The position numbers were made by a program, and so were the translations under genes. The notes below the pieces were generated by a model. It was not told where the DNA came from. It saw nothing but the letters and a program-made list of their open reading frames with translations, and ran no database searches. From a virus: a stretch of DNA of 25,089 nucleotides. The first letter of the stretch is position 1; each line of letters begins with the position of its first letter. This document shows positions 1 through 22,078 of the stretch, piece after piece. The stretch covers positions 1-25,089 of IMG/VR virus record IMGVR_UViG_3300042946_001446; one strand, 5' to 3'.

Positions 1-1419
1 GCTGGTGCTCGAAAGGATCATCCGCCGGATCGGCGCGAGGTCTCCGCGGAAGGCCTGCGCGAGGTCCGCGGCGCCCGCGCGGGCCACCGCATCCACCGCA
101 TCATCGCCGAGGCGCGCCCGGTCGGCCGGCGCGGCCGCCAGCGCCATCAGAGCCGCCATCGGCAACTTCCCCGCCGCCCCGCCGGCGTCCACCCGCTCGA
201 TCGGCAGGCCCAGCTTGTCGCTGAGCTGCGGCAACCCGTCCGCCGCCACCCGCAGGCCCGCCTGGGCCAGCGACTTCAGCAGCTCGCCCGTCGCCTGGCT
301 CTCCGCCACCGAGACGCCGCCCCAGCTCACCCGCGGCACCCCGCCGCGCAGGCCGTTGATCTCGCAGATCTGGCGAAAAAGTTGGTCGCGCAGCGTGCCG
401 GCCAGCGTCTTCCCGTCGAACTGCCGGTAGTCGTCCCGCACCCCCGCCTGCGCATTGGCCACGCCCGAGCCCAGCCCGGTGGACTGCGCCTCGGCCGAAA
501 GGGTCTGCCCCACGATCAGCTTGCTGATCTCCCGCCGGCTCAGCGTGAAGAACTTCTCGAAGGCATCCCCCGACGTCGATGCCGCCGCTTGCTGCAGCTC
601 CACCGACGTGTCGCGCGAGACCACCAGCCCGCCGATCCGCACCGCGGCCGAGAAAGCCCGCTCCAGGAGCGACCGCGAGGCGTCGTCGCTCGAGTCGTAT
701 TTGCCCACGAGGAAAGGCGCCCCGTAGCGGTCCAGGAAGCGCGCCCACCAGTCGCGGTCCATCGCCCCCAGCAGCCACCAGAAAAGGATGCAGCGCATCG
801 GCCCGCCCCAATGGTCCGGCGTCGAGAGCAGGTGGTTCCGGTGGACGATGTAGCGCCGCGGGTCCGGCTCCACGCCTTGATTGTAGCGCGGCCACCCGCG
901 CTCATCCGTCGGCATGATCCGCAGCCGGCCCGTCGAAAAGTCCAGCAGCTCGTGCGGCACCGGCACCAGCGCATCAAGCACAAAGCCACCCGCCCGCGGC
1001 CGGTAGATCTTCTCCACCACCGAGACCGGCCAGAGGATCGAATCCTGCAGATGCGCCAGCGCCGGCAGCCAGCCGTTGAGGTCCTCGATCTGCCCGCGCA
1101 CCTCGGCCGCCGCCGCCGCGTCAGCCCCCTTCGTCTTGTCGAGGGGCAGCACCGACATCGTGTCGCCCAGCACCGCCAGCTTGCGCTTCGAGAACTCCGT
1201 CTGCACGTGCGAGTCCGAGAGCACCGTGTCGCGGTAGATGGCGAAGAGCTGCCGCACGTCCCCGCCCTCGGCCGAGCGCAGCGCCGCGTGCAGGCCGGCC
1301 GCGTCCAAGGTCGCCGCCGCGAAGCTCATCTCGGCCAGCGGATTGAAATCAGTCAGCCGCCGCACCGGCACCAGGCTGCGGAGGTAGGATTCAAGGCGTT
1401 GGCGGAGGGCGTCAAACAT
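1..1419 (-). CDS. Mu gp29-type portal protein (DUF935), C-terminus cut by window edge
   Basis: The frame is open from ATG at 1419 to the window edge, giving 473 codons without a stop. The sequence fits the DUF935/Mu gp29 portal family, which forms the dodecameric ring at the capsid vertex through which DNA enters and leaves. Visible signs are VLSDSHVQTEFSKRKLAVLG near the N-terminus, a Trp-rich core (residues about 210-235, HWGGPMRCILFWWLLGAMDR), then ISKLIVGQTLSAE and a segment matching the usual 'GQTLT...V..D...ADA..LA.TL...L' region. About 500 residues is normal, so little is missing. The start overlaps the terminase nuclease stop by 8 bp and has GGAG upstream at proper spacing. It is the last visible gene of the leftward arm, whereas its usual partner, Mu F, lies 17 kb away on the other strand. 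Confidence 0.93.
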   Translation of the reverse strand, partial: MFDALRQRLESYLRSLVPVRRLTDFNPLAEMSFAAATLDAAGLHAALRSAEGGDVRQLFAIYRDTVLSDSHVQTEFSKRKLAVLGDTMSVLPLDKTKGADAAAAAEVRGQIEDLNGWLPALAHLQDSILWPVSVVEKIYRPRAGGFVLDALVPVPHELLDFSTGRLRIMPTDERGWPRYNQGVEPDPRRYIVHRNHLLSTPDHWGGPMRCILFWWLLGAMDRDWWARFLDRYGAPFLVGKYDSSDDASRSLLERAFSAAVRIGGLVVSRDTSVELQQAAASTSGDAFEKFFTLSRREISKLIVGQTLSAEAQSTGLGSGVANAQAGVRDDYRQFDGKTLAGTLRDQLFRQICEINGLRGGVPRVSWGGVSVAESQATGELLKSLAQAGLRVAADGLPQLSDKLGLPIERVDAGGAAGKLPMAALMALAAAPADRARLGDDAVDAVARAGAADLAQAFRGDLAPIRRMILSSTS

Positions 1420-2119
1420 TGCGGGTCTCCGGCCGACGATGCAGGTAAGCGAGCGGGTTCTTCCAACGGCCATGCGCGGACTGCGCCCCTTGCGTGCCCA
1501 CGCCGGCTGCCGCCGCCTCCGCTGGCCCGCCCGCGCCCTCCAGCGCGTAGATCGCCAGCTTCAGCGCGTCGAAGCAGTCCCCGTGAGAGCCGTCAGCCGC
1601 CACCTCCGTGGCGAACGTCCCCCGGTCCCGCTTCACCAGCCGGAGGTCATCCCGCAGCCAATCCCCGCCGGGCAGCAGCATCCGCCCGTCCTCGACCGCG
1701 TTCACCAGCAGATTGCCCAGGAAGACCTTGTAGGTCATCGACTCGCCCAGGTATTCCAGCGCCTCGCTCGAGACGATCAGCTCCACCGGGACCAACGCGC
1801 CGAGCTTCCGCTTCAGGGCCGCCGCGAAAAACCGCTCGCTCGTCGCGTCAATGCACAGCCGCCGCGCCCGACGCGGGGCCAGCCGCATCAACAGCGTGGT
1901 GAGGATCGCCTCCGTCACCGCCGGGTCAGTCGTCTTCCACCGCAAGATCAGCCGCGCGAAATACTCCCGGCCCGTCCGCTCCACCACCGCCAGCGCCGAC
2001 GGGTTGCTCGTCTGCTTCTCCGTCGTCGCCACGTCCAGGCCGAGGCCGATCGCGCTATGCTCGATCAGCGGCAGCCGGGGCGGCACCACGTCCGCCAGCG
2101 AGATCCCGCGCCGGCTCAC
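1412..2119 (-). CDS. Large terminase, separate nuclease subunit (TerL-C, Mu gp28-type)
   Basis: This 235-residue protein corresponds to the RNase H-fold nuclease half of a Mu gp28-type large terminase, which cuts packaged DNA. The acidic active-site residues are all in place: D29 in GLGLDVATTE, D91 in LCIDATSE and D181/D184 in HGDCFDALKLA. The chosen start is a GTG whose last two bases form the TGA stop of the upstream ATPase gene (GTGA overlap). It is preceded by GAGGAGG seven bases away, which is a very good ribosome binding site. The nuclease is therefore made as its own polypeptide, probably by termination-reinitiation, not as the C-terminal half of one chain. No ATPase motif occurs in this frame. 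A sequencing error that splits one gene is the main alternative. Confidence 0.85.
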   Translation of the reverse strand: MSRRGISLADVVPPRLPLIEHSAIGLGLDVATTEKQTSNPSALAVVERTGREYFARLILRWKTTDPAVTEAILTTLLMRLAPRRARRLCIDATSERFFAAALKRKLGALVPVELIVSSEALEYLGESMTYKVFLGNLLVNAVEDGRMLLPGGDWLRDDLRLVKRDRGTFATEVAADGSHGDCFDALKLAIYALEGAGGPAEAAAAGVGTQGAQSAHGRWKNPLAYLHRRPETRNV

Positions 2120-3018
2120 AGCCGCACCTCCTCGGTCACATCTACCGCCAGGCAATCCGCCGTCACCCCGAGCGCCATTGCCCGGCCGATCGCGCCCAGG
2201 CTCAGCGCCGACTGACCGCCCGAGACAAAGCGCAGCCCGAAGTTCCGGTCCCACGCCGTCTTGTCGAACGCCCGCGCCCTGTGCTCCTCCGGCGAGATCG
2301 GCTGCCGCGTCTTGTCGTCGAACATCGGCACCCCCGCGGCCATCGCGTCGAAGGCATCCACCCGGTGGACCAGATAGCCCGCCTGCGAGGTGTAGTAGTT
2401 GCCCTTCGGGTTGACCGGGAACTCCTCCTGCGGCGGCAGCACCATCTCCCACGAGTAGTGTCCGTCATCCGGCGGCGGCGTCGTGATGCCCAGCAGCCGG
2501 AACTGAGGATTGCTCGACATGAACGGCAGCACCGCCTCGAGCACGTCCTTGAAGTCCGGCATCCGGCCGAACTCATCGAGCCAGATGTCCCCCGTCCAGC
2601 CGACCGCCGTGTCCGGGTTCGGCGCCACCACGATCGAGCGCGAGTAGGTCGTGCGGTCGTGCCAGATCCGCGTCTCCAGCCGCTGGTGCTCGAAGAGATC
2701 GCACACCGCGTCGAGATCCAGCCCGTCGGCGTTGCTCGTGAGCTGCAGGCCCTGTTGCTTCGCGGCATCACGGAAGGCCGCCAGCACCATCTGCCAGATC
2801 ACCGCCTCCTTGCGGATAAACTCCATGCCCAGCGCAATCGAGGCCGAGACGAACACCGAGAGCAGCCCGCGGATCTGCATCATCCGCCGCATCGCCTTCC
2901 CACCCGCGTGGAACGATTTGCCCGACTGCCGGCGCCAGTTCCAGAAAACGATGCCCGTCTCGTCATCCCAGAACGGGTCCACCGCGTAGGGCCGCAGTTT
3001 GATGATTGGTTCTTTCAT
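2116..3018 (-). CDS. Large terminase, separate ATPase subunit (TerL-N, Mu gp28-type)
   Basis: This 300-residue protein is the packaging motor ATPase half of a Mu gp28-type large terminase. A Walker A-like motif RRQSGKS is at residues 29-35. A Walker B motif DIWLDEF is at about 144-150 with the acidic pair D148-E149. ITTPPPDDGHYSWEM at about 178-192 fits the ATPase coupling motif. The chain ends after the ATPase domain (VTEEVRL, then stop) where single-chain terminases continue into the nuclease. ATPase plus nuclease add to 535 residues, close to an intact gp28. The last codons contain the GAGGAGG that serves the downstream nuclease gene. The start lacks a clear Shine-Dalgarno site. The small terminase lies 88 bp upstream. 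Confidence 0.88.
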   Translation of the reverse strand: MKEPIIKLRPYAVDPFWDDETGIVFWNWRRQSGKSFHAGGKAMRRMMQIRGLLSVFVSASIALGMEFIRKEAVIWQMVLAAFRDAAKQQGLQLTSNADGLDLDAVCDLFEHQRLETRIWHDRTTYSRSIVVAPNPDTAVGWTGDIWLDEFGRMPDFKDVLEAVLPFMSSNPQFRLLGITTPPPDDGHYSWEMVLPPQEEFPVNPKGNYYTSQAGYLVHRVDAFDAMAAGVPMFDDKTRQPISPEEHRARAFDKTAWDRNFGLRFVSGGQSALSLGAIGRAMALGVTADCLAVDVTEEVRL

Positions 3019-3106
3019 GGGAAAATGCGCGGGGACGGGACGAGTTCACCTGAGCAAGGCAGCGCTCGTTGGGGCCGAATAGCCGCCCGCCCCCGCAACA
3101 GTCGTT

Positions 3107-3775
3107 TCATGCCGGCGGCTCCGCGGCGGCGGCCGTCGGCCGCTCGCCGAACATCAGTTGCACCAGCTTCTCCATCTTCGCGCCGGCGTCCTCGCGCGAA
3201 GAGGCAATGGTCCGGGCCTCCTGGTCCGCATACCACTTGAGGAACCTCTCCGCCGTCTGCCGTTGGAAGCGGGCCTCGGCCAGCTCCAGCTCGCGGTCCT
3301 TCTGCGCGAGGCGCGCCTGGGCCACGCGGGCATTGATCGCCGAGGCCTCGGACGTCCGCAGGCTCGCCAGGGCGCCCACCAGCTTGCCCACGTTGTCCTC
3401 ATCGAGGCTTTCCAGCATCTCGAGGATGCGACCCCCGGCCACCGCGGCCGCGCCTTCGGAGACCCCGCCGCCGGCCTTGGCCAGGTCGAGCGCGTAGGCC
3501 GAAAGCGTCTTGAGGTTGTCCACCCGGTCGCGGCGGTTGAGCCAGTCGCGGTAGCCGCCCTGCCGCCAGTCGGAAAGGTTCTGCGCGGACACCGGCTCGC
3601 CCTCGAAGTGCTCGGCCAGCACGGCCAGCGTCTCCGGCTTCGCGTTCAGCCAGGCAAGGATCTGCCCGCCCGTGTGCCCGTCGTGCAACCGCCGGCACAC
3701 CTCCTCGCGGAGATCCGCGGGCAGGCGGCCGATCTTGCCCCGTCGGGCGCGCTCAGGTGCGGGTGTCTCGCTCAT
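3107..3775 (-). CDS. Small terminase subunit (Mu gp27-type, DUF3486-like)
   Basis: This 222-residue protein is placed directly before the large terminase, as in Mu (gp27 before gp28), and should recognise phage DNA and load the packaging motor. The N-terminus (GKIGRLPADLREEVCRRLHDG, about residues 13-34) matches the helix-turn-helix start of DUF3486-like small terminases. QNLSDWRQGGYRDWLNRRDRV (about 85-105) looks like the second DNA-binding helix pair. The middle is Ala/Gly-rich. The C-terminal third is a long charged helix (LAQKDRELELAEARFQRQTA, then FLKWYADQEAR) likely to drive oligomerisation. The family assignment is by pattern recognition and position. Confidence 0.8.
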   Translation of the reverse strand: MSETPAPERARRGKIGRLPADLREEVCRRLHDGHTGGQILAWLNAKPETLAVLAEHFEGEPVSAQNLSDWRQGGYRDWLNRRDRVDNLKTLSAYALDLAKAGGGVSEGAAAVAGGRILEMLESLDEDNVGKLVGALASLRTSEASAINARVAQARLAQKDRELELAEARFQRQTAERFLKWYADQEARTIASSREDAGAKMEKLVQLMFGERPTAAAAEPPA

Positions 3776-6989: not shown

Positions 6990-7448
6990 CTACTCCAGCA
7001 CTCGAAGCTTGATCTTGATAGCCTCCTGCACTCTGCGTTTGGCCAGATCGGTCAGGCGACCGCTGCGATCGATGGGAAAAAACGGTCGGGCAGGCATGTA
7101 GCGTGTGCCCATTTGGTGGAAGCGCGCATAGTCACGATCCGTCCCGATGGTCACGCTCGACTTGGTGAGTTTGTGAATCGCGATGGACTGCCACATGGTC
7201 CCCTCGGCCTTCAAAAGCGCCGTCTTGAATTTTATCTTCGGGTCCCTCTCTTTCGCCGCCAGCGTCGATGCTGCGAGAGCCTGCCATGGCGCGGGGCGTA
7301 TGCCCGGATCATCAAAAGCCCTCAAAATCTGCGAGCGGATCGCCAGCCCTGCGGCCTCCAGAGCCGGCCGAGCATCACTCACTCGGGCCAACATCCGACC
7401 CAGGCGAGGGGTGATCGCATCGCGGGTCACATTGACGGTCACCATCAT
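6990..7448 (-). CDS. Mu G-type virion morphogenesis protein, copy 1 (leftward arm)
   Basis: This 152-residue protein belongs to the Mu gpG/phage virion morphogenesis family. It contains PALEAAGLAI, IRPAPWQALAASTLAAKERD, VTIGTDRDYARFHQMGT and MPARPFFPIDRSG. These features are shared almost word for word with the second copy at 19171-19620, but the N-terminal 30 residues and the segment around residues 70-85 differ. The product should act in head-tail joining or tail completion. It sits next to the tape measure, not to Mu F. Its DNA is less GC-rich than the second copy. The start could also be ATG 7445 or ATG 7469; 7448 or 7445 gives the better N-terminus. Confidence 0.85.
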   Translation of the reverse strand: MMVTVNVTRDAITPRLGRMLARVSDARPALEAAGLAIRSQILRAFDDPGIRPAPWQALAASTLAAKERDPKIKFKTALLKAEGTMWQSIAIHKLTKSSVTIGTDRDYARFHQMGTRYMPARPFFPIDRSGRLTDLAKRRVQEAIKIKLRVLE

Positions 7449-7461
7449 GCACCGGAGCCTC

Positions 7462-7509
7462 GCGCACATCTCACCCGCGCCTCAAAACACGCCGCGCCGG
7501 GTGCGCGGG
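7462..7509 (-). repeat. GC-rich inverted repeats upstream of G copy 1
   Basis: CCCGCGC (7474-7480) can pair with GCGCGGG (7503-7509), or GCGCAC (7462-7467) with GTGCGC (7501-7506). The two pairings exclude each other. The parts (GCGCAC, CCCGC, GTGCGCGGG) resemble those of the hairpin at 5242-5295, so both may be copies of one small element in the leftward arm. No U-tract is present. Confidence 0.35.
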
Positions 7510-10574: not shown

Positions 10575-11423
10575 ATGCCACACCTCAAGACATCCGCCCG
10601 CCTCGACCGCACGCCCAAAGCCGCCAGCGCCGCCGACTCCGCCATCCTGATGCTCCCCCCGAAGACTCTCAGCGTTCACGAACTCCTCGCCGACGTGCCT
10701 TGCTGGACGGACGGCAGCGAGGACATGCAGTCCTTGGCGGCCGACATCGCGGCGCGGGGAATCGACCAGCCAATCATCGTGACTCAGGGAGACGGCGCGT
10801 TTCTGGTGATCGATGGTCGCCACCGTCTGCGCGCCGCCTGCCTCGCCGGCCTGTCAGAGGTCCCCGTTGTGGTGCGCGATGAAGGCCAAGCCTTGGAGAT
10901 TATCCTCGGGTCGCTCACCCAGCGCCGCCACTTCAACAAGGGCGCCCTAGCTTACCTCTGCTATCCGGTCCTCGAGGCCGCCACGCATGCTTCCAGCGGT
11001 CGGCCGCAGAAATCGTCGCCTCAGGCGACTATTTCGGCTGAGGAGGCCTGCGCACGCTTCGGATTTAGTCGGGACAGCTACTTCAGGGCCGCGAAAGCCC
11101 ACGAGATCTTCCGCCGCCGGCCGGATCTACGGGAGCACTTCGAGCCGCTGATCCTGACCGGTCAGGTCGGCCTCGGCGCGGCCATCGCGGGATGCGCCGG
11201 CCACGATGCGACCAAGGGGCAGGCCCGCAACACGCAGCCGCCCGAGCAGCTCCTGCTTGCCGGCTTCGAGGTCATCGAGGTGCGCTTCCGCGCCTGGGAC
11301 AAGCTCGAAGGCACCGCCCGCCGCGTCGTCACCGACCGCGCCATCGAGACGGTCATGGGCCTCCCCGAAGAGGTCCAAGAATCCATCGCCCGCGCCCTGC
11401 GGGCCGCACGGAGGGCGGCATGA
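10575..11423 (+). CDS. ParB/Srx-fold nuclease-domain protein upstream of transposase
   Basis: This 282-residue protein has a ParB-like N-terminal domain: SVHELLADVPCWTDGSEDMQ, SLAADIAARGIDQPIIVTQ, then AFLVIDGRHRLRAACLAGL with the GxHR signature at residues 81-84, and VPVVVRDEGQALEIILGSL. ParB boxes of this type bind CTP in ParB proper. A helix-turn-helix-like segment follows (ISAEEACARFGFSRDSYFRA, about 150-172) and then a helical C-terminus. The end overlaps transposase A by ATGA. In a transposing phage it could act as a DNA-binding regulator or help position DNA; the partner is unknown. Confidence 0.8.
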   Translation: MPHLKTSARLDRTPKAASAADSAILMLPPKTLSVHELLADVPCWTDGSEDMQSLAADIAARGIDQPIIVTQGDGAFLVIDGRHRLRAACLAGLSEVPVVVRDEGQALEIILGSLTQRRHFNKGALAYLCYPVLEAATHASSGRPQKSSPQATISAEEACARFGFSRDSYFRAAKAHEIFRRRPDLREHFEPLILTGQVGLGAAIAGCAGHDATKGQARNTQPPEQLLLAGFEVIEVRFRAWDKLEGTARRVVTDRAIETVMGLPEEVQESIARALRAARRAA

Positions 11424-13306
11424 TTCTCGAAGCCCCCGCAACAGAGGACAGGAGCGCGGGCGTCCCGCCCGCATTGTCGGCCGAAGCGGGCGAGACGCCC
11501 GCGCTCCCTTCCGAGGCTCAGATGCCCGGCATCATCCCGCCGCAGGCCATGGAGCGCTATGACGCCGTGCGCAAGGTCGAGGCCCTGGCCAAGACCCGCG
11601 GGCTTTCCATCGCCGCCGCCTGCGGCGAGGCCGGCGTGCCGCGGGCCTCGTTCGAGCGCTGGCGCACGCGCATGGCCCAGGGGGGCATCGAGGCGCTGGC
11701 CGACAACTACGCCAACTGCGGGCGCAAGCCGCTGGCCACGCTCGACGAGCAGGAGCTGCAGATCGCCCGCGGCCTCTACGTCCAGACCGGCAGCGCCACC
11801 GCCGCCCTGCGCATCCTCGCCTCGCGCCCCGAGTGCCGCGAGGAGACGGCCGAGGCCATCACCAAGCGCCGCCGCAGCAAGCACACCATCACGCCGACCC
11901 TCCGCGGCCAGATCGCGGCGGTTCCGCAGGCCGTGCGCGACTGGCACAAGTCGCCCACGCGCGTGCAGCGCGAGCAGTTCATCACCCCGCGCACCCTCGG
12001 CTACCTCGGCGCGGACGGCCGCGAGGCTCCGCTGCTCCCGGGCCAGCTCTTCGAGCGCGACGACATGTCGAACAACTTCCTCTTCTGGGTCGAGTGGCCA
12101 TGGGGCGGTGACCCGTGCTCAGACAAATTCGGCGTGCGCCTCGCCCGCGGCCAGAACCTCCTCGCCCTCGACGCCGGCAGCCTGCGCTTCCTCTCGTTCG
12201 AGCTGCTCGTGCGCCTGCGCGACAGCTACCGCGCGGACGACATCTGGCAGTGGGTCGGCTCGACCTACCGCGACCTCGGCATCCCCGAGATCGGCGAGCG
12301 CTGGGAGCGCGGCATCTGGACCGCGAACAAGCTCCACGGCATCCCGATCGAGGCCGGCCACACCGACAACGACGTGCGCCTCGGCGGCCTCCGCGCCCTC
12401 GGCCGCCGGGTCGTCACCAGCCAGAGCCCGACCACCAAGATCATCGAAAACCGCTTCCGCTACCTGCAGCGGGTCTGCACGGACATCCCCGGCCAGATCG
12501 GCGCGCGGCGCGGCGAGATGGAGGCGGTCAACAAGCTCTGGACCGCCTGCCGCGAAGGCCGCCGCGACCCGCGGGACCACTTCCCGAGCTACGCCCAGGT
12601 CACGGCCGCCCTCGAGGCCAAGCTCCAGTGGTGCAACGCCGAGCCGGTCGAGGGCGCCCTCTACCAGGGCATCCCGAACGAGATCTGGCAGCGCGAGGGC
12701 GGCGACCAGCGCCTCATCAAGCTCGCCCCCGAGCAGTCCTACCTTTTCAGCCGCGACCTCCGCCGCGTCACCGTCACCAAGGGCCACGCCCTGGTGCGCC
12801 GCACCGAGCCCGACGGCCGCCGCCTCGGCTGGTGGTTCCACCACGAGGATCTGTGGCGCCACGAGGGCGTGAAAGTCGCCCTCTATCTCGACGACCAATG
12901 CGCCGAGGCCGGCGCCACCGCCGTGATCGCCGAGGGCCGCGAGGTCGGCAAGGTGATCGGCCACTGCGCGCTTGTCCAGGGCTGCCCGCAATTCGCGCTC
13001 GGCCTGCCCGATGGCGAGGACACCCGCGGCAGCGACGCCCTGGCCCGCCGGCGCGACTTTACCACCGCCGTGCGCAGCGAATACCGCGCGCTCGGCCTGC
13101 GCCACACCGTGGCCCGGAGCAGCCGCGCGGCGACCAGCAAGGCCCGCGCCGAAATTTCCACGGGGGATGGAAACCGCGGCGGAGGGGCGGGTCTCACCGC
13201 CCCCCGCCGCGCGATCCCCGCGGACACCTACGACGAGGCGGCCGAGCTGGCCCACGTGGAGGCCGCGGAGGCCGCCATGCGCGCCACCGGAAGCCTCATC
13301 ACCTGA
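11420..13306 (+). CDS. Mu A-type DDE transposase
   Basis: This 628-residue protein should cut and join phage ends during integration and replicative transposition. An N-terminal helix-turn-helix is at about 62-95 (SIAAACGEAGVPRASFERWR). The RNase H-fold core includes D215 (FERDDMSNNFLFWV), LLALDAGSLRFLSFELLVRL (247-266), then GERWERGIWTANK (292-304) and E343 (TTKIIENRFRYLQ). A beta-barrel C-terminal domain follows (GHALVRR...GWWFHHEDLW...GVKVALYLDD). The second catalytic Asp expected in the 'DNG' strand reads Glu (E296). Residues 11-31 come from a palindromic repeat. The C-terminal tail (HVEAAEAAMRATGSLIT) may contact the B ATPase. ATG overlaps the ParB-like stop (ATGA). Confidence 0.92.
   Translation: MILEAPATEDRSAGVPPALSAEAGETPALPSEAQMPGIIPPQAMERYDAVRKVEALAKTRGLSIAAACGEAGVPRASFERWRTRMAQGGIEALADNYANCGRKPLATLDEQELQIARGLYVQTGSATAALRILASRPECREETAEAITKRRRSKHTITPTLRGQIAAVPQAVRDWHKSPTRVQREQFITPRTLGYLGADGREAPLLPGQLFERDDMSNNFLFWVEWPWGGDPCSDKFGVRLARGQNLLALDAGSLRFLSFELLVRLRDSYRADDIWQWVGSTYRDLGIPEIGERWERGIWTANKLHGIPIEAGHTDNDVRLGGLRALGRRVVTSQSPTTKIIENRFRYLQRVCTDIPGQIGARRGEMEAVNKLWTACREGRRDPRDHFPSYAQVTAALEAKLQWCNAEPVEGALYQGIPNEIWQREGGDQRLIKLAPEQSYLFSRDLRRVTVTKGHALVRRTEPDGRRLGWWFHHEDLWRHEGVKVALYLDDQCAEAGATAVIAEGREVGKVIGHCALVQGCPQFALGLPDGEDTRGSDALARRRDFTTAVRSEYRALGLRHTVARSSRAATSKARAEISTGDGNRGGGAGLTAPRRAIPADTYDEAAELAHVEAAEAAMRATGSLIT
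11451..11507. repeat. 57-bp imperfect palindrome inserted in frame in transposase N-terminus
   Basis: GGAGCGCGGGCGTC (11451-11464) is perfectly inverted at 11494-11507. After one mismatch, CGCCCGC (11466-11472) pairs with GCGGGCG (11486-11492); the loop is 13 bases. It encodes transposase residues around RSAGVPPALSAEAGETPALP. The 'AGVPPAL...GETPALP' translation is one I recall from dispersed palindromic repeats in Verrucomicrobiota. Confidence 0.75.
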
Positions 13307-13330
13307 ACCACACCAAGAAAGAGCACCCAC

Positions 13331-13366
13331 ATGAACGAGCAAAACAACCCACGGAGGGCCGCGTAG
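13331..13366 (+). other. Eleven-codon mini-ORF ahead of the B ATPase
   Basis: ATG at 13331 opens an 11-codon frame (MNEQNNPRRAA) that stops at TAG 13364-13366, three bases before the B start. It contains the GGAGG that could serve B at a spacing of about 11. It could be a short leader coupling transposase and B expression, or chance. Confidence 0.25.
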
Positions 13367-13368
13367 CC

Positions 13369-14352
13369 ATGGCCCCGAACCTCCTCGCCACCCGCGACGC
13401 CGCCGAGCTGCGCGAACTCGGCCAGAAGATCCGCGCCTGGCAGACCGAGCGCGGCCTCAGCGACACCGCCATGGTCAAGCGCTTCGGCGGCCTCGGCAGC
13501 ACGAAGACCTACACCCGCGTCCATGCCGGCGACCTCGCCGAGCTGGATCTCGACCGCCAACTCGCCAACTACCGCGCCGTCTGGGCGCTCCTCGAGAGCG
13601 TCGAGGGCGGCGACGAGCGCGGCGAGGAACTCTACGACGACCTCAGCCCCGTCGTGCAGCTCAAGCGCGCCGTCTTCGACGTGTTCCGTCAGACCGGCAA
13701 CGCCCGCTTCGTCCTCATGGAAGGCGACACCGGCCTGGGCAAGAGCAAGGCCCGCGGCCTCCTCATCGAGAAATACGGCCAGCGCCTCCTCTGGGTCGAG
13801 GCCACCGAGGTGTGGAACGACTCCCCGGGTGCCTTCCTCGCCGCCGTCATGGTCGCCCTCGGCATCCGCGAGGTGCCCCAGATGGCCGTCGAGCGGCTCA
13901 ACCGCGTGCTGGCCCGCCTCAACGAGACCCGCGTGTGCCTCATCGTGGACGAGCTGCACCACGCCGGCCCGCGGATCTTGAACACCCTCAAGACCATCCT
14001 CAACCAGAGCCCCGGCGAAGTCGTCGGCCTGGCCATGCCCACCCTCTGGCGCCGCATCGAGCGCGAGGCCTACGAGGAGGTCCGCCAGCTCACCGGCAAC
14101 CGCCTGGCCGAGCGCATCAAGCTCGCCCTGCGCGAGAGCGACGTGGCCAAGCTCATCACCCGCCGCGTGCCGGAGGCCTCCGACACCGTGAAAGAGGCCA
14201 CGCGCCTCCTCATGGACCGCGCCCCGCGCTACGGCAACCTCGCCTTCGTCTCGGCCGTTTGCTCCCGCGTGGCCGAGCTGGCCGAAGGCCACGACGGCCC
14301 CGACCTCGAGACCTGGGGCACCGCGATCAGCCAGGAGGTGGCACGCCGATGA
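13369..14352 (+). CDS. Mu B-type AAA+ ATPase, target-DNA selector for transposition
   Basis: This 327-residue protein is the partner of transposase A: it binds target DNA as an ATP-dependent filament and activates strand transfer. The N-terminal helix-turn-helix region (about 10-60, LSDTAMVKRFGGLGSTKTYT) matches the Mu B N-domain. Walker A is GDTGLGKS at 119-126 and Walker B is LIVDE at 191-195 followed by LHHAG. The C-terminal helical domain has LAERIKLALRESDVAKLITRRV and ends YGNLAFVSAVCSRVAELAEG. Length is in line with Mu B (312). Its stop overlaps the next gene by ATGA. Confidence 0.93.
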   Translation: MAPNLLATRDAAELRELGQKIRAWQTERGLSDTAMVKRFGGLGSTKTYTRVHAGDLAELDLDRQLANYRAVWALLESVEGGDERGEELYDDLSPVVQLKRAVFDVFRQTGNARFVLMEGDTGLGKSKARGLLIEKYGQRLLWVEATEVWNDSPGAFLAAVMVALGIREVPQMAVERLNRVLARLNETRVCLIVDELHHAGPRILNTLKTILNQSPGEVVGLAMPTLWRRIEREAYEEVRQLTGNRLAERIKLALRESDVAKLITRRVPEASDTVKEATRLLMDRAPRYGNLAFVSAVCSRVAELAEGHDGPDLETWGTAISQEVARR

Positions 14353-14864
14353 GCAGGCCCCTCCACAACCCCGCCGCCCGCGCCGAGGCCTCGACCGGCC
14401 CGCAGCTCACCATCGTGGATGTTTCCACCGCGGCCGGCGGTCGCTCGGGCTTCGACGGCCGCTGGCTGCGCGTCCAGGGCCCACACCTCCGCGCCGTCCG
14501 CAGCCGGCACGCCCGCAACCGCACCGGCTGCCCGGGCGTCAGCTTCAGCGTCGAGCGCCGTGGCCGGAAGACCTACCAGTTCTTCTACGTCAACCTCGGC
14601 CGGCGCAACCGCCGCTTCAACATCACCACCCTCGGCCGCGAGGAAGCCTGGCGCCGCGCCATCAAACTCCGCGCCGAGCACGAGGCCCGCGTCGAGGAGA
14701 TCAACCACGGCATTTTGCTCGCGCGCAAAAACGCCGCAGGCGCGGCCCTCAGCGGATCGGAGGAGCGGAGGGGCGGGGCGCTCGCCCCGACGCCTCGTAG
14801 GGGTCGGCGAACGTCGGCGAGAGGCCTTCTCGTCGATGCGATCCCAAAACCAGACCCCTCCTGA
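14349..14864 (+). CDS. AP2-like DNA-binding protein with repeat-derived C-terminus
   Basis: This is a 171-residue protein. Residues about 60-115 (GVSFSVERRGRKTYQFFYVN, RRFNITTLGREEAWRRAIKL) have the three-strand-plus-helix pattern of AP2/ERF-type DNA-binding domains seen in phage proteins. After ARKNAAGAALSG the chain changes character to GSEERRGGALAPTPRRGRRT...VDAIPKPDPS. This tail is encoded by nested inverted repeats (14759-14860) and probably is not part of the original protein. ATG overlaps the B stop. A regulatory or accessory role in transposition is inferred from position. Confidence 0.7.
   Translation: MSRPLHNPAARAEASTGPQLTIVDVSTAAGGRSGFDGRWLRVQGPHLRAVRSRHARNRTGCPGVSFSVERRGRKTYQFFYVNLGRRNRRFNITTLGREEAWRRAIKLRAEHEARVEEINHGILLARKNAAGAALSGSEERRGGALAPTPRRGRRTSARGLLVDAIPKPDPS
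14759..14860. repeat. Nested inverted/direct repeats at the 3' end of the AP2-like gene
   Basis: GGGGC-gctc-GCCCC forms a compact hairpin at 14775-14788. GTCGGCGA occurs twice in tandem (from 14803 and 14813). AGGGGTC (14799-14805) is inverted as GACCCCT (14853-14859). Together they look like an intergenic REP-type element that became the gene's tail. T5 at 14871-14875 follows, so termination is possible though the geometry is poor. Confidence 0.5.
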
Positions 14865-18118: not shown

Positions 18119-19171
18119 ATGATGCTCCTCAAACCCGTGCCGCAGAAAGAGGCCGCCGACTTCATCAAGTCGAAGCCGGCCGTCACGCGCGCGGTGTTCG
18201 ATGAGCTGCTCCCGGAGCTGAAGGCCCGTGCGTTCACGGTCTCGGGCATCGAGTCCGCGAACGTCTTGCAGGACCTCCGCGACCGCATCGCGGATCTGCC
18301 GCTGGGGGGTGATTGGGACAAGATCAAGGCCGACCTGGTCGAGCAGATCAGCCCGTTCCTGGCATCCGGCGGCGACGATGAGGAGGCCCAGAAGAAGACT
18401 GCGGCCAAGGCCACCCGCCGCGCCGAACTGCTCCTGCGCCTCCACGGGTTCCAGGCCTACGCGGCCTCGGCCTATCGGGTGATGGACCGGCAGCGCGACG
18501 TTTTCCCCTTCTGGATGTATCGCTCGATGGGCGACGGGAAGGTGCGGGATTCGCACGCGGCCCTCAACGGCAAGATCCTGCCGAGCACCAGCCCATTCTG
18601 GCAGAAGCACTATCCGCCCTGGGAGTGGGCCTGCCGGTGCCAGGTGGTGCCGATGATGCAGGGCGATGTGGACGAGATCCGCGAGGCGGAGAAGGACCGC
18701 CCGCTCGAGGAGCGCCGCGTCCTCGAGGGCGCCGCCCTGGAATCGGTCGAGCAGCGCGGCTCGCTCGTGGCCGGCCCGAACAAGGTTTTCGATCTGCGCA
18801 CGCCGAGCGAGAAGGGCCAGCCGGGCGGCTTCGAGTGGAGCCCCGGCGACCTCACGCTCACGCCGGACCAGCTCCGCGACCGCTACTCGCCCGAGGTGTG
18901 GACGAAGTTCGAGACCTGGGCGAAGGCCGCGCGGATCTCGAAGAACCTCACGGTCTGGCAGTGGATGAACCGCTCGACGCCCGCGCCGAAGGACGAGATC
19001 CCGGCCAGCCTCGCCGCCATGACGAAGGTCAAGGACCTCGATGCCTCACGGGACTCCCGGATCTGGAAACTGGCCAAGGAGAAGGTCTTGATGCCCGGGG
19101 CTTCGTGGTCGTTTGGGATCTTGCTCGAATACCTCAAGGCCGAGGCCAAGCGCACTCTGGGTCTGCCCTGA
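18119..19171 (+). CDS. Mu F-type minor head protein (MuF domain)
   Basis: A 350-residue protein that opens the head module. The MuF/SPP1 gp7 domain is clear around residues 128-180: FPFWMYRSMGDGKVRDSHAA, LNGKILPSTSPFW, then YPPWEWACRCQVVPM, with the H and CxC typical of the family. These proteins sit near the portal and are packaged with the DNA. The C-terminal half (LTLTPDQLRDRYSPEVWTKF; LTVWQWMNRST) is less known. In Mu the portal gene comes directly before F; here it is on the opposite arm. ATG 18122 is an alternative start. Confidence 0.9.
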   Translation: MMLLKPVPQKEAADFIKSKPAVTRAVFDELLPELKARAFTVSGIESANVLQDLRDRIADLPLGGDWDKIKADLVEQISPFLASGGDDEEAQKKTAAKATRRAELLLRLHGFQAYAASAYRVMDRQRDVFPFWMYRSMGDGKVRDSHAALNGKILPSTSPFWQKHYPPWEWACRCQVVPMMQGDVDEIREAEKDRPLEERRVLEGAALESVEQRGSLVAGPNKVFDLRTPSEKGQPGGFEWSPGDLTLTPDQLRDRYSPEVWTKFETWAKAARISKNLTVWQWMNRSTPAPKDEIPASLAAMTKVKDLDASRDSRIWKLAKEKVLMPGASWSFGILLEYLKAEAKRTLGLP

Positions 19172-19620
19172 TGCAAGCCACTCTCAAACTCACCAAGGAC
19201 ACGGTCTCGCGGGATCTGCTGAAGAAGCTGAAGGCCGCCGCGGACCCGAAGCCGGCGCTCGAGGCCGCGGGCCTGGTCATCGTCCAGCGGGCCGTGCGGG
19301 CTTTCGATGAGCCCGGCGTGCGTCCCGCGCCCTGGCAGGCGCTGGCGGCCTCAACGCTGGCCAGCAAGGCCAAGGCGGGCAAGAGCAACGCGATCTTGAA
19401 GCGCGACGGCGTCCTCTGGCGCTCGATCCGCATCACCAACCTGACCAAGTCGGGCGTGACCGTGGGCACCGATCGCTTCTACGCGCAGTTCCACCAGCTC
19501 GGCACCAAGCGCATGCCTGCGCGCCCGTTCTTCCCCTTCGACCGAAGCGGCAAGCTCGAAGCCACCGCGGCCGCGCGCGTGCAGTCGGCGATCCAGATCA
19601 AGCTCGGCGTGGACAAGTAA
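19171..19620 (+). CDS. Mu G-type virion morphogenesis protein, copy 2 (rightward arm)
   Basis: This 149-residue protein follows F by a TGATG overlap, the canonical F-G order. It shares PALEAAGL, RAFD-PG-RPAPWQALAASTLA, LTKS-VT-GTDR-YA-FHQ-GT and RMPARPFFP-DRSG with the leftward-arm copy (6990-7448); well over half of the aligned positions agree by eye. It is richer in GC than the other copy and carries AKAGKSNAILKRDG where that one has a longer insert. Role: head completion or head-tail joining. Confidence 0.88.
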   Translation: MQATLKLTKDTVSRDLLKKLKAAADPKPALEAAGLVIVQRAVRAFDEPGVRPAPWQALAASTLASKAKAGKSNAILKRDGVLWRSIRITNLTKSGVTVGTDRFYAQFHQLGTKRMPARPFFPFDRSGKLEATAAARVQSAIQIKLGVDK

Positions 19621-19662
19621 CTCGCCCTCCGCGCATCCGGCGCAGGGCGGTTAGAGGGCGAG
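19621..19662 (+). promoter_or_regulatory. Intergenic inverted repeat before the I protease gene
   Basis: CTCGCCCTC (19621-19629) is perfectly inverted as GAGGGCGAG (19654-19662). An alternative shorter pairing uses CGCCCT (19623-19628) with AGGGCG (19644-19649). The SD for the protease (AGAGG, 19666-19670) lies just beyond. No U-tract follows, so it may act as an RNA stability or attenuation element between G and I. Confidence 0.35.
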
Positions 19663-19675
19663 GGCAGAGGGCGGC

Positions 19676-20611
19676 ATGTTGGCCGCCATGAAATTGGACG
19701 GACTTCTCGCCTGCCAGGCCATCTCGAACGGTGCGCTGGCCGCGGAGTCTCTGCCCACCGAGGTCAAGCTGCTCGCCTGGGGCGACAACCCTTCTCTCAA
19801 AGGCAACATCCGCGTGGGCGCGAAAACGCTCGCCGCCCTCTCGGCCAATCAGGCCCGCCTCGGCTTCGACAAGGTCGGGCTCGACTACGAGCACCAGTCC
19901 GTGGATGGCCACAAGAACTTCAAGGCCGCCCCCCGCGAATATGCCGCCTACGGTGTGCCGGAGGTGCGCGAGGGTGACGGCCTCTACCTCACCGCGTTGA
20001 CCTGGACGCCGAGCGGTCAGGCAAACGCCAAGAACTACTGCGACCTCTCGCCCGTCGTCCTTCGCCAAGACGGCGAGGTCGTCTTCCTCCACAGCGTGGC
20101 CCTCTGCCCGCAGGGCGCCGTTGCCGGCCTCGAGTTCTTCTCGGCCGACGCGACCCTCGAGACCCTTTCGACCAAAGATCCCATGAACCCTGACCTCAAG
20201 AAACTGCTGTGCGCCCTCTTCGGGTGCGAAGACTCGGCCGATGAGGCCGCCATCCTCTCGGCCGGCCAGGCCTTCGCCGAGAAGATCACCAAGGCCGGCG
20301 ACAAGCCCGAGCAGACCGAGCTGACGGCCCTGGCCGCCACGGTCGCCGATCTGGCCCAGCGCCTGGACTCGCAAGAGCGCAGCCGCGTCCTCGAGGCCGC
20401 CCTCCACGAGGGCAAGCTCGTGCCCGCCAGCGCGAAGACCCTTCCGCTCGATCAGCTCACGGCCCTCGTCGCCGAGCTGCCCGCCGGCTTGGTGCCGCTC
20501 GCCCAGCGCACCCCGGAGAGCGTGCAAACCCTCTCGGCCCAATTGAGCGCCACCGACCTCGCGGTCGCCGCCCAGCTCGGCCTCAAGCCCGAAGAACTCA
20601 CCACCAAGTAA
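19676..20611 (+). CDS. Mu I-type prohead protease with scaffold C-terminus
   Basis: This 311-residue protein corresponds to Mu gpI, which cleaves scaffold and prepares the capsid. GFDKVGLDYEHQSVDGHKN (residues 63-81) matches the family's DYEHQ signature. TALTWTPSGQANAKNYCDLS with PVV (107-128) is the second conserved block. Residues from about 170 on are helical and charged (LAATVADLAQRLDSQERSRV), i.e. the scaffold part. As in Mu, where Z is an internal in-frame start, ATG 20183 (MNPDLKKLLC) could give a free 142-residue scaffold, though no strong SD is visible before it. AGAGG precedes ATG 19676. Confidence 0.88.
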   Translation: MLAAMKLDGLLACQAISNGALAAESLPTEVKLLAWGDNPSLKGNIRVGAKTLAALSANQARLGFDKVGLDYEHQSVDGHKNFKAAPREYAAYGVPEVREGDGLYLTALTWTPSGQANAKNYCDLSPVVLRQDGEVVFLHSVALCPQGAVAGLEFFSADATLETLSTKDPMNPDLKKLLCALFGCEDSADEAAILSAGQAFAEKITKAGDKPEQTELTALAATVADLAQRLDSQERSRVLEAALHEGKLVPASAKTLPLDQLTALVAELPAGLVPLAQRTPESVQTLSAQLSATDLAVAAQLGLKPEELTTK

Positions 20612-20629
20612 CCCACCAAATCCACCGCC

Positions 20630-21142
20630 ATGGCTGCTGCAACCGCTGAAATCAACACGCCGGAACGTCCCGGCACCACCACGAGCTACCCCGTCGCCGC
20701 GACGACCAAGATCTTCGCCGGCACGCTGGTCGCCCTCAACTCGTCCGGCCTCGCCGTTCCGGCCGCCGACACCGCAGGTCTCCGCGTCGTCGGCCGCGCC
20801 GAAGCCACCGTGCACAACACGGGCAGCGCCGGCGACCTCAACGTCGACGTCAAGGAGGGCGTGTTCCTCTACAACAACAGCGCCACCGACGCGGTGGACG
20901 CGAACGACCGCGGCAAGATCTGCTTCGTCGAGGACGACAACACCGTCGATGAGACCGGCGCCACGCACCGCGTGGTCGCGGGCCGCGTGGTCGATGTGAC
21001 CTCCGAGGGCGTGTGGGTCGATGTGCGGGCCGGCCAGGCCGCCCGCGTGCCCAGCGCCGACACCATCACCGGCGCCGCCGATCTGGCTGCGCTCAAGACC
21101 GCGCTCCTGGCGCTCCTCCAGGCCCACGGCATCGTCAAGTAA
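20630..21142 (+). CDS. Capsid decoration protein (DUF2190-like)
   Basis: A 170-residue, Ala/Val/Thr-rich beta protein between protease and major capsid. The PVAATTKIFAGTLVALNSSG ... GRAEATVHNTGSAGDLNVDV ... EGVFLYNNSATDAV pattern is that of DUF2190/head-decoration proteins that trim the capsid surface. A short C-terminal helix (DLAALKTALLALLQAHG) follows. A C/A-rich leader without SD precedes the start. Confidence 0.8.
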   Translation: MAAATAEINTPERPGTTTSYPVAATTKIFAGTLVALNSSGLAVPAADTAGLRVVGRAEATVHNTGSAGDLNVDVKEGVFLYNNSATDAVDANDRGKICFVEDDNTVDETGATHRVVAGRVVDVTSEGVWVDVRAGQAARVPSADTITGAADLAALKTALLALLQAHGIVK

Positions 21143-21169
21143 TCACCGAAACCTCACACACCACACACC

Positions 21170-22078
21170 ATGGAAATCACGACCCACTCACTGGCCAGCG
21201 TCAAGCGCGGCCTCCAGCGCATCTTCGACAACGCCTACCAGGGCGTCGCGGAAATGTGGTGGAAGATGCTCGCCCTCGAGTCCACCTCGACCGGCGCGGA
21301 AGAGGAATACCACTGGCTCGGCGCCGTCCCGGGGCTCAAGGAGCTGACGGGCGAGATCTCGATCCAGAACCTTCTCCGCCACGGGTTCACCATCAAGAAC
21401 AAGGAGTGGGAGAGCACCGTCGGCATCAAGCGCAAGGACCTCGAGCGCGACCGCCTCGGTGTTTACAGCCCGCTCGTGGCCTCGATGGCTGAAGCTGCTG
21501 CCTACCAGCCCGGCGAGCTGATCGCCGAGCTGCTCACCGGCGGCTTCACCAACACGGACTACACCGGCTCCGCGTTCTTCCACACTTCGAAGAAGGCCCA
21601 CGCCAAGGCTGCGGCCTTCAGCAACAAGGGCACGAAGAAGCTCAGCCAGGCGAACTTCCGCACCGGCCGCGCCAGCCTGCGCAGCCGTTTCAACGGCGAA
21701 GGCCGCGCGATGCGCCTGGGCAAGGACCTTGTGCTCATCGTGAGCCCGACCTACGAGGCCACCGCGCTCGAGATCACCACGGCCGAGAAGATCGGGAACA
21801 ACACGAACGTGGACCGCGGCACCGCCCGCACCCTCGTGCTGCCCGAGCTGCTCGCCCTGGACGCCGAGCACAACTGGTTCCTCGTCGAGGCCGGCTCGAC
21901 CATGAAGCCCTTCATCTTCCAAAAGGAGCTGGCCCCGCAGACCGCCATGGTCACCAACCCCGACGACTCCCACGTCGTGACCAAGCAGGAGTTCCTCTTC
22001 CAGGTCTACGCCCGCCACAACGCTGGCTACGGCCTGCCGGAGCTGGCCTACGGCTCGACCGGGGCGGACGTTGCCTAA
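21170..22078 (+). CDS. Mu T-type major capsid protein
   Basis: A 302-residue protein, close to the Mu T length. Conserved blocks: ASVKRGLQRIFDNAYQGVAE at the N-terminus, KELTGEISIQNLLRHGFTIK, then WESTVGIKRKDLERDRLGVY, LLTGGFTNTDYTGSAFFHTS, and a C-terminal FLFQVYARHNAGYGLPELAY. The start has no SD but is preceded by CACACCACACACCATGG, almost the leader found before the holin and the 14928 gene. A hairpin terminator follows. Confidence 0.95.
   Translation: MEITTHSLASVKRGLQRIFDNAYQGVAEMWWKMLALESTSTGAEEEYHWLGAVPGLKELTGEISIQNLLRHGFTIKNKEWESTVGIKRKDLERDRLGVYSPLVASMAEAAAYQPGELIAELLTGGFTNTDYTGSAFFHTSKKAHAKAAAFSNKGTKKLSQANFRTGRASLRSRFNGEGRAMRLGKDLVLIVSPTYEATALEITTAEKIGNNTNVDRGTARTLVLPELLALDAEHNWFLVEAGSTMKPFIFQKELAPQTAMVTNPDDSHVVTKQEFLFQVYARHNAGYGLPELAYGSTGADVA

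Follow-up and report, generated by a model that had tools for sequence, protein, structure and literature searches.

A large terminase encoded as separate ATPase and nuclease genes in a lineage of Mu-like phages

The stretch of DNA analysed here (hereafter the window), a virus record of 25,089 bases from a metagenome, encodes the large terminase subunit (TerL) as two adjacent genes. The first gene (positions 2116-3018, minus strand) is an open reading frame of 300 aa with an ATG start and a TGA stop and encodes the ATPase; the second (1412-2119, minus strand; 235 aa, GTG start, TGA stop) encodes the nuclease. The first-pass annotation had described the two as separate frames sharing the letters GTGA, with a ribosome-binding motif ahead of the second, and the window sequence confirms this description. 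At the junction (...GACCGAGGAGGTGCGGCTGTGAGCC...), the GTG of the nuclease gene (2119-2117) overlaps the TGA of the ATPase gene (2118-2116), the nuclease frame lies at -1 relative to the ATPase frame, and the Shine-Dalgarno-like (SD-like) sequence GAGGAGG (2127-2133, minus strand) is found 7 nt ahead of the GTG, within the codons of the VTEEV tail of the ATPase. We counted 403 [AGT]TGA sites on both strands of the window and four of them combine an SD-like element with at least 200 aa open downstream: the TerL junction, that of the tape-measure gene, a site with a start at 11420 (plus strand) and a site at 2802 inside the ATPase gene. The nuclease frame remains open for 111 codons further upstream of the GTG (2452-2120); despite this longer open frame, homology to the nuclease family starts at the GTG. 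Together, the two halves sum to 535 aa (300 + 235); the one-chain TerL of phage Mu (gp28; 12899-14554) has 551 aa. The first-pass annotation had anticipated this match in length and was also right that gp28 of Mu is one chain.

A candidate small terminase subunit (3107-3775, minus strand; phrog_426, E 7.7e-05) lies upstream of the two genes, and a portal gene (Portal_Mu; 1-1419, minus strand), which leaves the window and shares 8 nt with the end of the nuclease gene, lies downstream. The window therefore presents the gene order typical of TerL (small terminase, TerL, portal). The upstream small terminase and the downstream portal are conserved in relatives, with the small terminase found in split and fused loci alike. 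The small terminase, the TerL halves and the portal occupy the left end of the window (1-3775, minus strand), and MuF-like, protease I-like and gpT-like head genes occupy its right end (18119-22078, plus strand); in Mu, the counterparts of both groups lie on one strand. This two-strand layout possibly reflects a rearrangement or a misassembly of the record. The window also encodes, one on each strand, a pair of related virion-morphogenesis (Mu gpG-like) proteins (6990-7469, minus strand, recognized by Pfam; 19176-19620, plus strand, recognized by eye).

The ATPase half matched the PHROG family of terminase large subunits (phrog_2; E 3.3e-09), as did 29 of the 30 ATPase family members, and the ATPase profile matched T4 gp17 (E 1.5e-04). 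The Walker A-like motif RRQSGKS and the Walker B-like motif IWLDE are both carried by this first chain, where the first-pass annotation had placed them, together with a TTPPP motif; residues K34, S35, D148 and E149 are invariant across 30 members. The window nuclease matched Pfam Terminase_6C with 26.0 bits (cut-off 22.6), a family that is found at E 0.01 in only five of the 30 nuclease members. Since a PDB profile search with the nuclease alignment returned nothing relevant, we compared folds instead. The AlphaFold2 model of the window nuclease (pLDDT 85.8; 30-row alignment) matched the TerL nuclease of G20c (Z 17.2 over 164 residues, 2.7 Å), with E217, T4 gp17, P74-26, Sf6 and herpesvirus terminase nucleases at lower ranks. 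Both the Pfam match and the match to G20c identify the RNase H-like nuclease fold of TerL. The fold of the ATPase half was assigned through its homology to the model of a fused relative, L036 (pLDDT 83.7), in which residues 2-271 matched the ATPase domain of P74-26 (Z 19.6) and residues 272-495 matched the G20c nuclease (Z 18.4).

The metal-binding acids of a TerL nuclease are also present in the second chain. The positions that had been proposed (D29, D91, D181 and D184) are indeed all found there, but D91 and D184 vary among relatives: the residues invariant in 30 nuclease members are D29, E95, H179 and D181. The acid at position 91, an Asp in the window, is replaced by Ala or Leu in five relatives (L009, L010, L011, L015 and L021). 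The replacement of D91 in sequences that keep E95 suggests either that E95 is a metal ligand or that these nucleases are altered, and some nuclease halves may thus have changed chemistry. Because its ATPase and nuclease reside on separate polypeptides instead of a single one, we consider this terminase to be a two-gene variant of TerL and not a canonical TerL.

We then located the break relative to the protein domains. In the L036 model, the nuclease domain starts at residue 271-275 and the point equivalent to the split, taken from the profile ends, lies at about residue 301. The alignment to G20c starts at residue 273 for the stand-alone window nuclease and at residues 254-257 for L036. The break thus lies some 27-30 residues past the start of the nuclease domain as defined in crystal structures. 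The first-pass annotation was correct that the split is real, but one detail has to be refined: the chain is broken not at the hinge between domains but after one helix and one strand of the nuclease domain. Because the nuclease domain of L036 starts before the split point, the ATPase chain is predicted to keep the helix and strand that begin this domain. In the window, this C-terminal tail corresponds to residues ~273-300 (2119-2203, minus strand), which end with the VTEE segment, and it is equivalent to the helix and strand with which the nuclease domain opens in solved TerL structures. A free ATPase would have no evident reason to keep such a tail, which makes it the best candidate for an element on which the nuclease likely docks. 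Its conservation is moderate and lower than that of the ATPase core (mean majority-residue fraction of 0.53-0.60 and 0.64-0.78, respectively).

To describe the distribution of this arrangement, we scanned viral contigs and one genome per species for about 85,000 species. Relatives were found in genomes of Verrucomicrobiota and Kiritimatiellota, in one uncultured bacterium and in metagenomic viruses; 17 of 388 sampled genomes of the phylum contained a match, split or fused. A tblastn search of 50,697 phage records with each half and two fused forms yielded no relatives. After removal of duplicates, the set comprised 34 split and 29 single-chain non-redundant loci, and all 34 split loci are broken at the same point. 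The first-pass annotation had called for a search of related phages and had reasoned that close relatives with a single reading frame would speak against a split; the opposite was observed, as the nearest relatives are all split, several of them with genes between the halves. The isolate Geminisphaera colitermitum TAV2 contains four TerL loci of the family, three split and one single-chain (an open frame of 542 aa).

The spacing of the two halves varies across split loci. The 4-base overlap of the window is shared by 12 other non-redundant loci (L002, L007, L014, L026, L032, L033, L037, L039, L074, L075, L076 and L080; 13/34 with the window), one locus has an 8-base overlap and one (L023, TAAATG) has a gap of zero. 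The remaining 19 loci present 34-1,237 bases between the halves, with varying relative frames. Most of these gaps contain small genes, and DNA methyltransferases are found in two of them. For instance, the gap of L004 (2670-3914), which is the same locus as the TAV2 locus L019, encodes a C5-cytosine methylase; that of L018 (4912-5499) contains an MT-A70 protein gene, and that of L057 (3639-3914) an N4 gp49-like protein. The gap of L020 (4921-5806) holds unknown ORFs. These observations indicate that the space separating the TerL halves serves as an insertion site for additional genes. Purifying selection acts on both halves, with pN/pS of 0.02-0.52 across eight pairs.

We further analyzed the history of the split. 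In a tree of the concatenated halves, one clade (support 100/99) united 31 split loci with two fused loci, L036 and L050, and a tree with more genomes recovered a clade of 34 rows (32 split and the two nested fused loci; 95/91). Two divergent split loci, L076 and L080, fell outside the clade; joining them to it was not rejected (AU test, p = 0.34), and their break lies at the same alignment position as in the other split loci. The more distant homologues (29 loci) are single-chain. The simplest account suggested by these trees is one ancestral split in phages of Verrucomicrobiota/PVC bacteria followed by two re-fusions. L036 and L050 keep the split-type VTE/ITE/VTD tail and nuclease head across the join (KITETLTLANIRDLVPADW and DVTDKFGIDDIPMLFPADW), which is consistent with natural re-fusions. 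In the fused L051 and L055, CLA leads directly to the DDFPPNW region, without the extra ITE tail or the nuclease head. L036 and L050 should be useful as natural controls.

The two halves also present distinct histories. The nucleases of L044 and L004 are 69% identical and group together (100/99), but their ATPases share only 53% identity, and this grouping is rejected by the ATPase tree (p = 2e-9). Similarly, the ATPase of L015 is 83-85% identical to those of L003 and L004, and its nuclease groups with that of L021 (100/99); the grouping of L015 with L021 is rejected by the ATPase tree (p = 6e-6), and that of L003, L004 and L015 by the nuclease tree (p = 0.004). The conflict between the trees indicates modular recombination, in which nuclease genes were swapped between prophages. 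We also considered whether the nuclease diverged further after splitting and did not retain this idea: at equal ATPase identity, the nuclease identity of split pairs is only slightly below that of fused pairs.

Overall, this is a genuine two-gene TerL; we consider it quite probable that it originated by an ancestral split and that its halves still form one machine, with the nuclease presumably docked on the ATPase tail. In the scenario that we propose, the single-chain TerL of an ancestral Mu-like phage of Verrucomicrobiota would have been divided into two genes, one for the ATPase and one for the nuclease, at a point just past the initial helix and strand of the nuclease domain. Both halves would be produced from one message, with translation probably coupled through the GTGA in the window. 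The ATPase would assemble on the portal and pump DNA, and the nuclease would dock non-covalently on the C-terminal helix-strand tail of the ATPase and, once docked, make the initial and the final (headful) cuts. Among relatives, tight coupling would have been lost where genes were gained between the halves, and the halves would have been re-joined in two lineages. The more specific proposal, that the ATPase tail holds the nuclease by strand/helix complementation, that the motor and the cutter can be separated and exchanged between phages and that a covalent link is dispensable for headful packaging, has in our judgment slightly better than even chances of being correct.

The strongest competing explanation accepts both genes as true but makes the nuclease a free enzyme outside the motor, with DNA packaged by the ATPase ring alone in the manner of phi29. 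The tolerance of relatives for unrelated genes between the halves would fit with such independence, as would the exchange of partners and the faster evolution of the nuclease half (L003 and L004 share 88% identity in the ATPase and 59% in the nuclease). However, the nuclease domain evolves faster in fused relatives too, so that its speed is no sign of independence. Moreover, split members keep the helix and strand of the nuclease domain on their ATPase chain, the halves remain neighbours, flanked by small terminase and portal, in every split locus examined, and two lineages have re-fused them. We consequently view a free nuclease as improbable.

It is much less probable that a -1 ribosomal frameshift at the GTGA of overlapping members produces a fused TerL some of the time. 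The window does offer a nuclease frame at -1, a 4-base overlap and a strong SD-like element as potential stimulator, but the nuclease family homology begins at its own start codon, and neither L023, where the stop and start abut, nor the 19 gapped loci out of 34 agree with this mechanism. Because of their stops and intervening DNA, mostly other genes, these 19 loci can be joined neither by a frameshift nor by a one-base error. The first-pass annotation had taken the SD-like motif at the exact junction as an argument against a random frameshift, and its conclusion is upheld by the common break of the 34 loci and the gaps in 19 of them.

Splicing offers another route to a single chain, the two halves being then exons of a gene interrupted by an intron or an intein. 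There are precedents in the TerL genes of gut Jug phages, which are split by group I introns (PMC12363816), and in the TerL inteins reported in mycobacteriophages (PMC5050341). The terL of Jug phages likewise appears as separate ORFs, but RNA splicing restores one chain there, whereas in the window family no intron is found and the two genes either overlap or have other genes between them. With its 4-base overlap, the window cannot accommodate an intron; the halves each carry a start and a stop of their own, an Rfam intron search of nine loci found none, and no intein or homing-endonuclease families were detected in ten inter-gene ORFs. We did not retain splicing as a candidate on these grounds and hold it to be very doubtful. 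Finally, an error of sequencing or assembly, or the decay of TerL, which the metagenomic origin of the window might suggest, has a negligible probability given that the same break occurs in independent assemblies, including those of the isolates Geminisphaera colitermitum TAV2 and Haloferula luteola, and that pN/pS is well below 1 in both halves with key motifs intact. The two-gene arrangement is old, inherited and still working.

This two-gene TerL can be compared with several known systems. The canonical single-chain TerLs (Mu gp28, T4 gp17, P74-26 and G20c) share its ATPase and RNase H-like folds, Walker motifs and gene order; in the window, the activities reside on two polypeptides and the break lies within the nuclease domain as crystallised. 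The fused TerLs of related uncultured phages and prophages (L051, L006, L055 and others) are homologous across both halves and have the same neighbours, but consist of a single ORF. Packaging ATPases of the phi29 gp16 type are motors without a covalently attached working nuclease, a property shared with the window ATPase, although in the window the adjacent gene encodes a true TerL nuclease. The P2-type terminase is also made of two polypeptides, gpP and gpM, named ATPase and endonuclease subunits, with gpM being the counterpart of the small terminase. In contrast, the window has a separate small terminase candidate and its nuclease is the C-terminal domain of TerL.

To our knowledge, TerL is regarded throughout the tailed phages as a single protein with two domains, and packaging models invoke the movement of one TerL domain against the other. 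The C-terminal nuclease domain is described in one survey as a universal feature of TerL (PMC7824862). None of the open-access papers searched described a two-gene TerL free of introns, which is not proof of novelty. A search for split or two-gene TerL returned only the intron-split terL and the TerL inteins cited above, along with unrelated matches on RNA polymerase genes (PMC5468394), a split polymerase (PMC10848311) and spanins (PMC12210895).

These results carry a warning for genome annotation: the nuclease half will often be overlooked, because the window nuclease matches no PHROG family at E 1 and few members are reached by Terminase_6C. More generally, a natural lineage in which TerL was split, maintained by selection, invaded by inserted genes, supplied with swapped nucleases and twice re-joined constitutes a ready-made test of the role of the covalent linker, both in translocation and in the switch from pumping to cutting.
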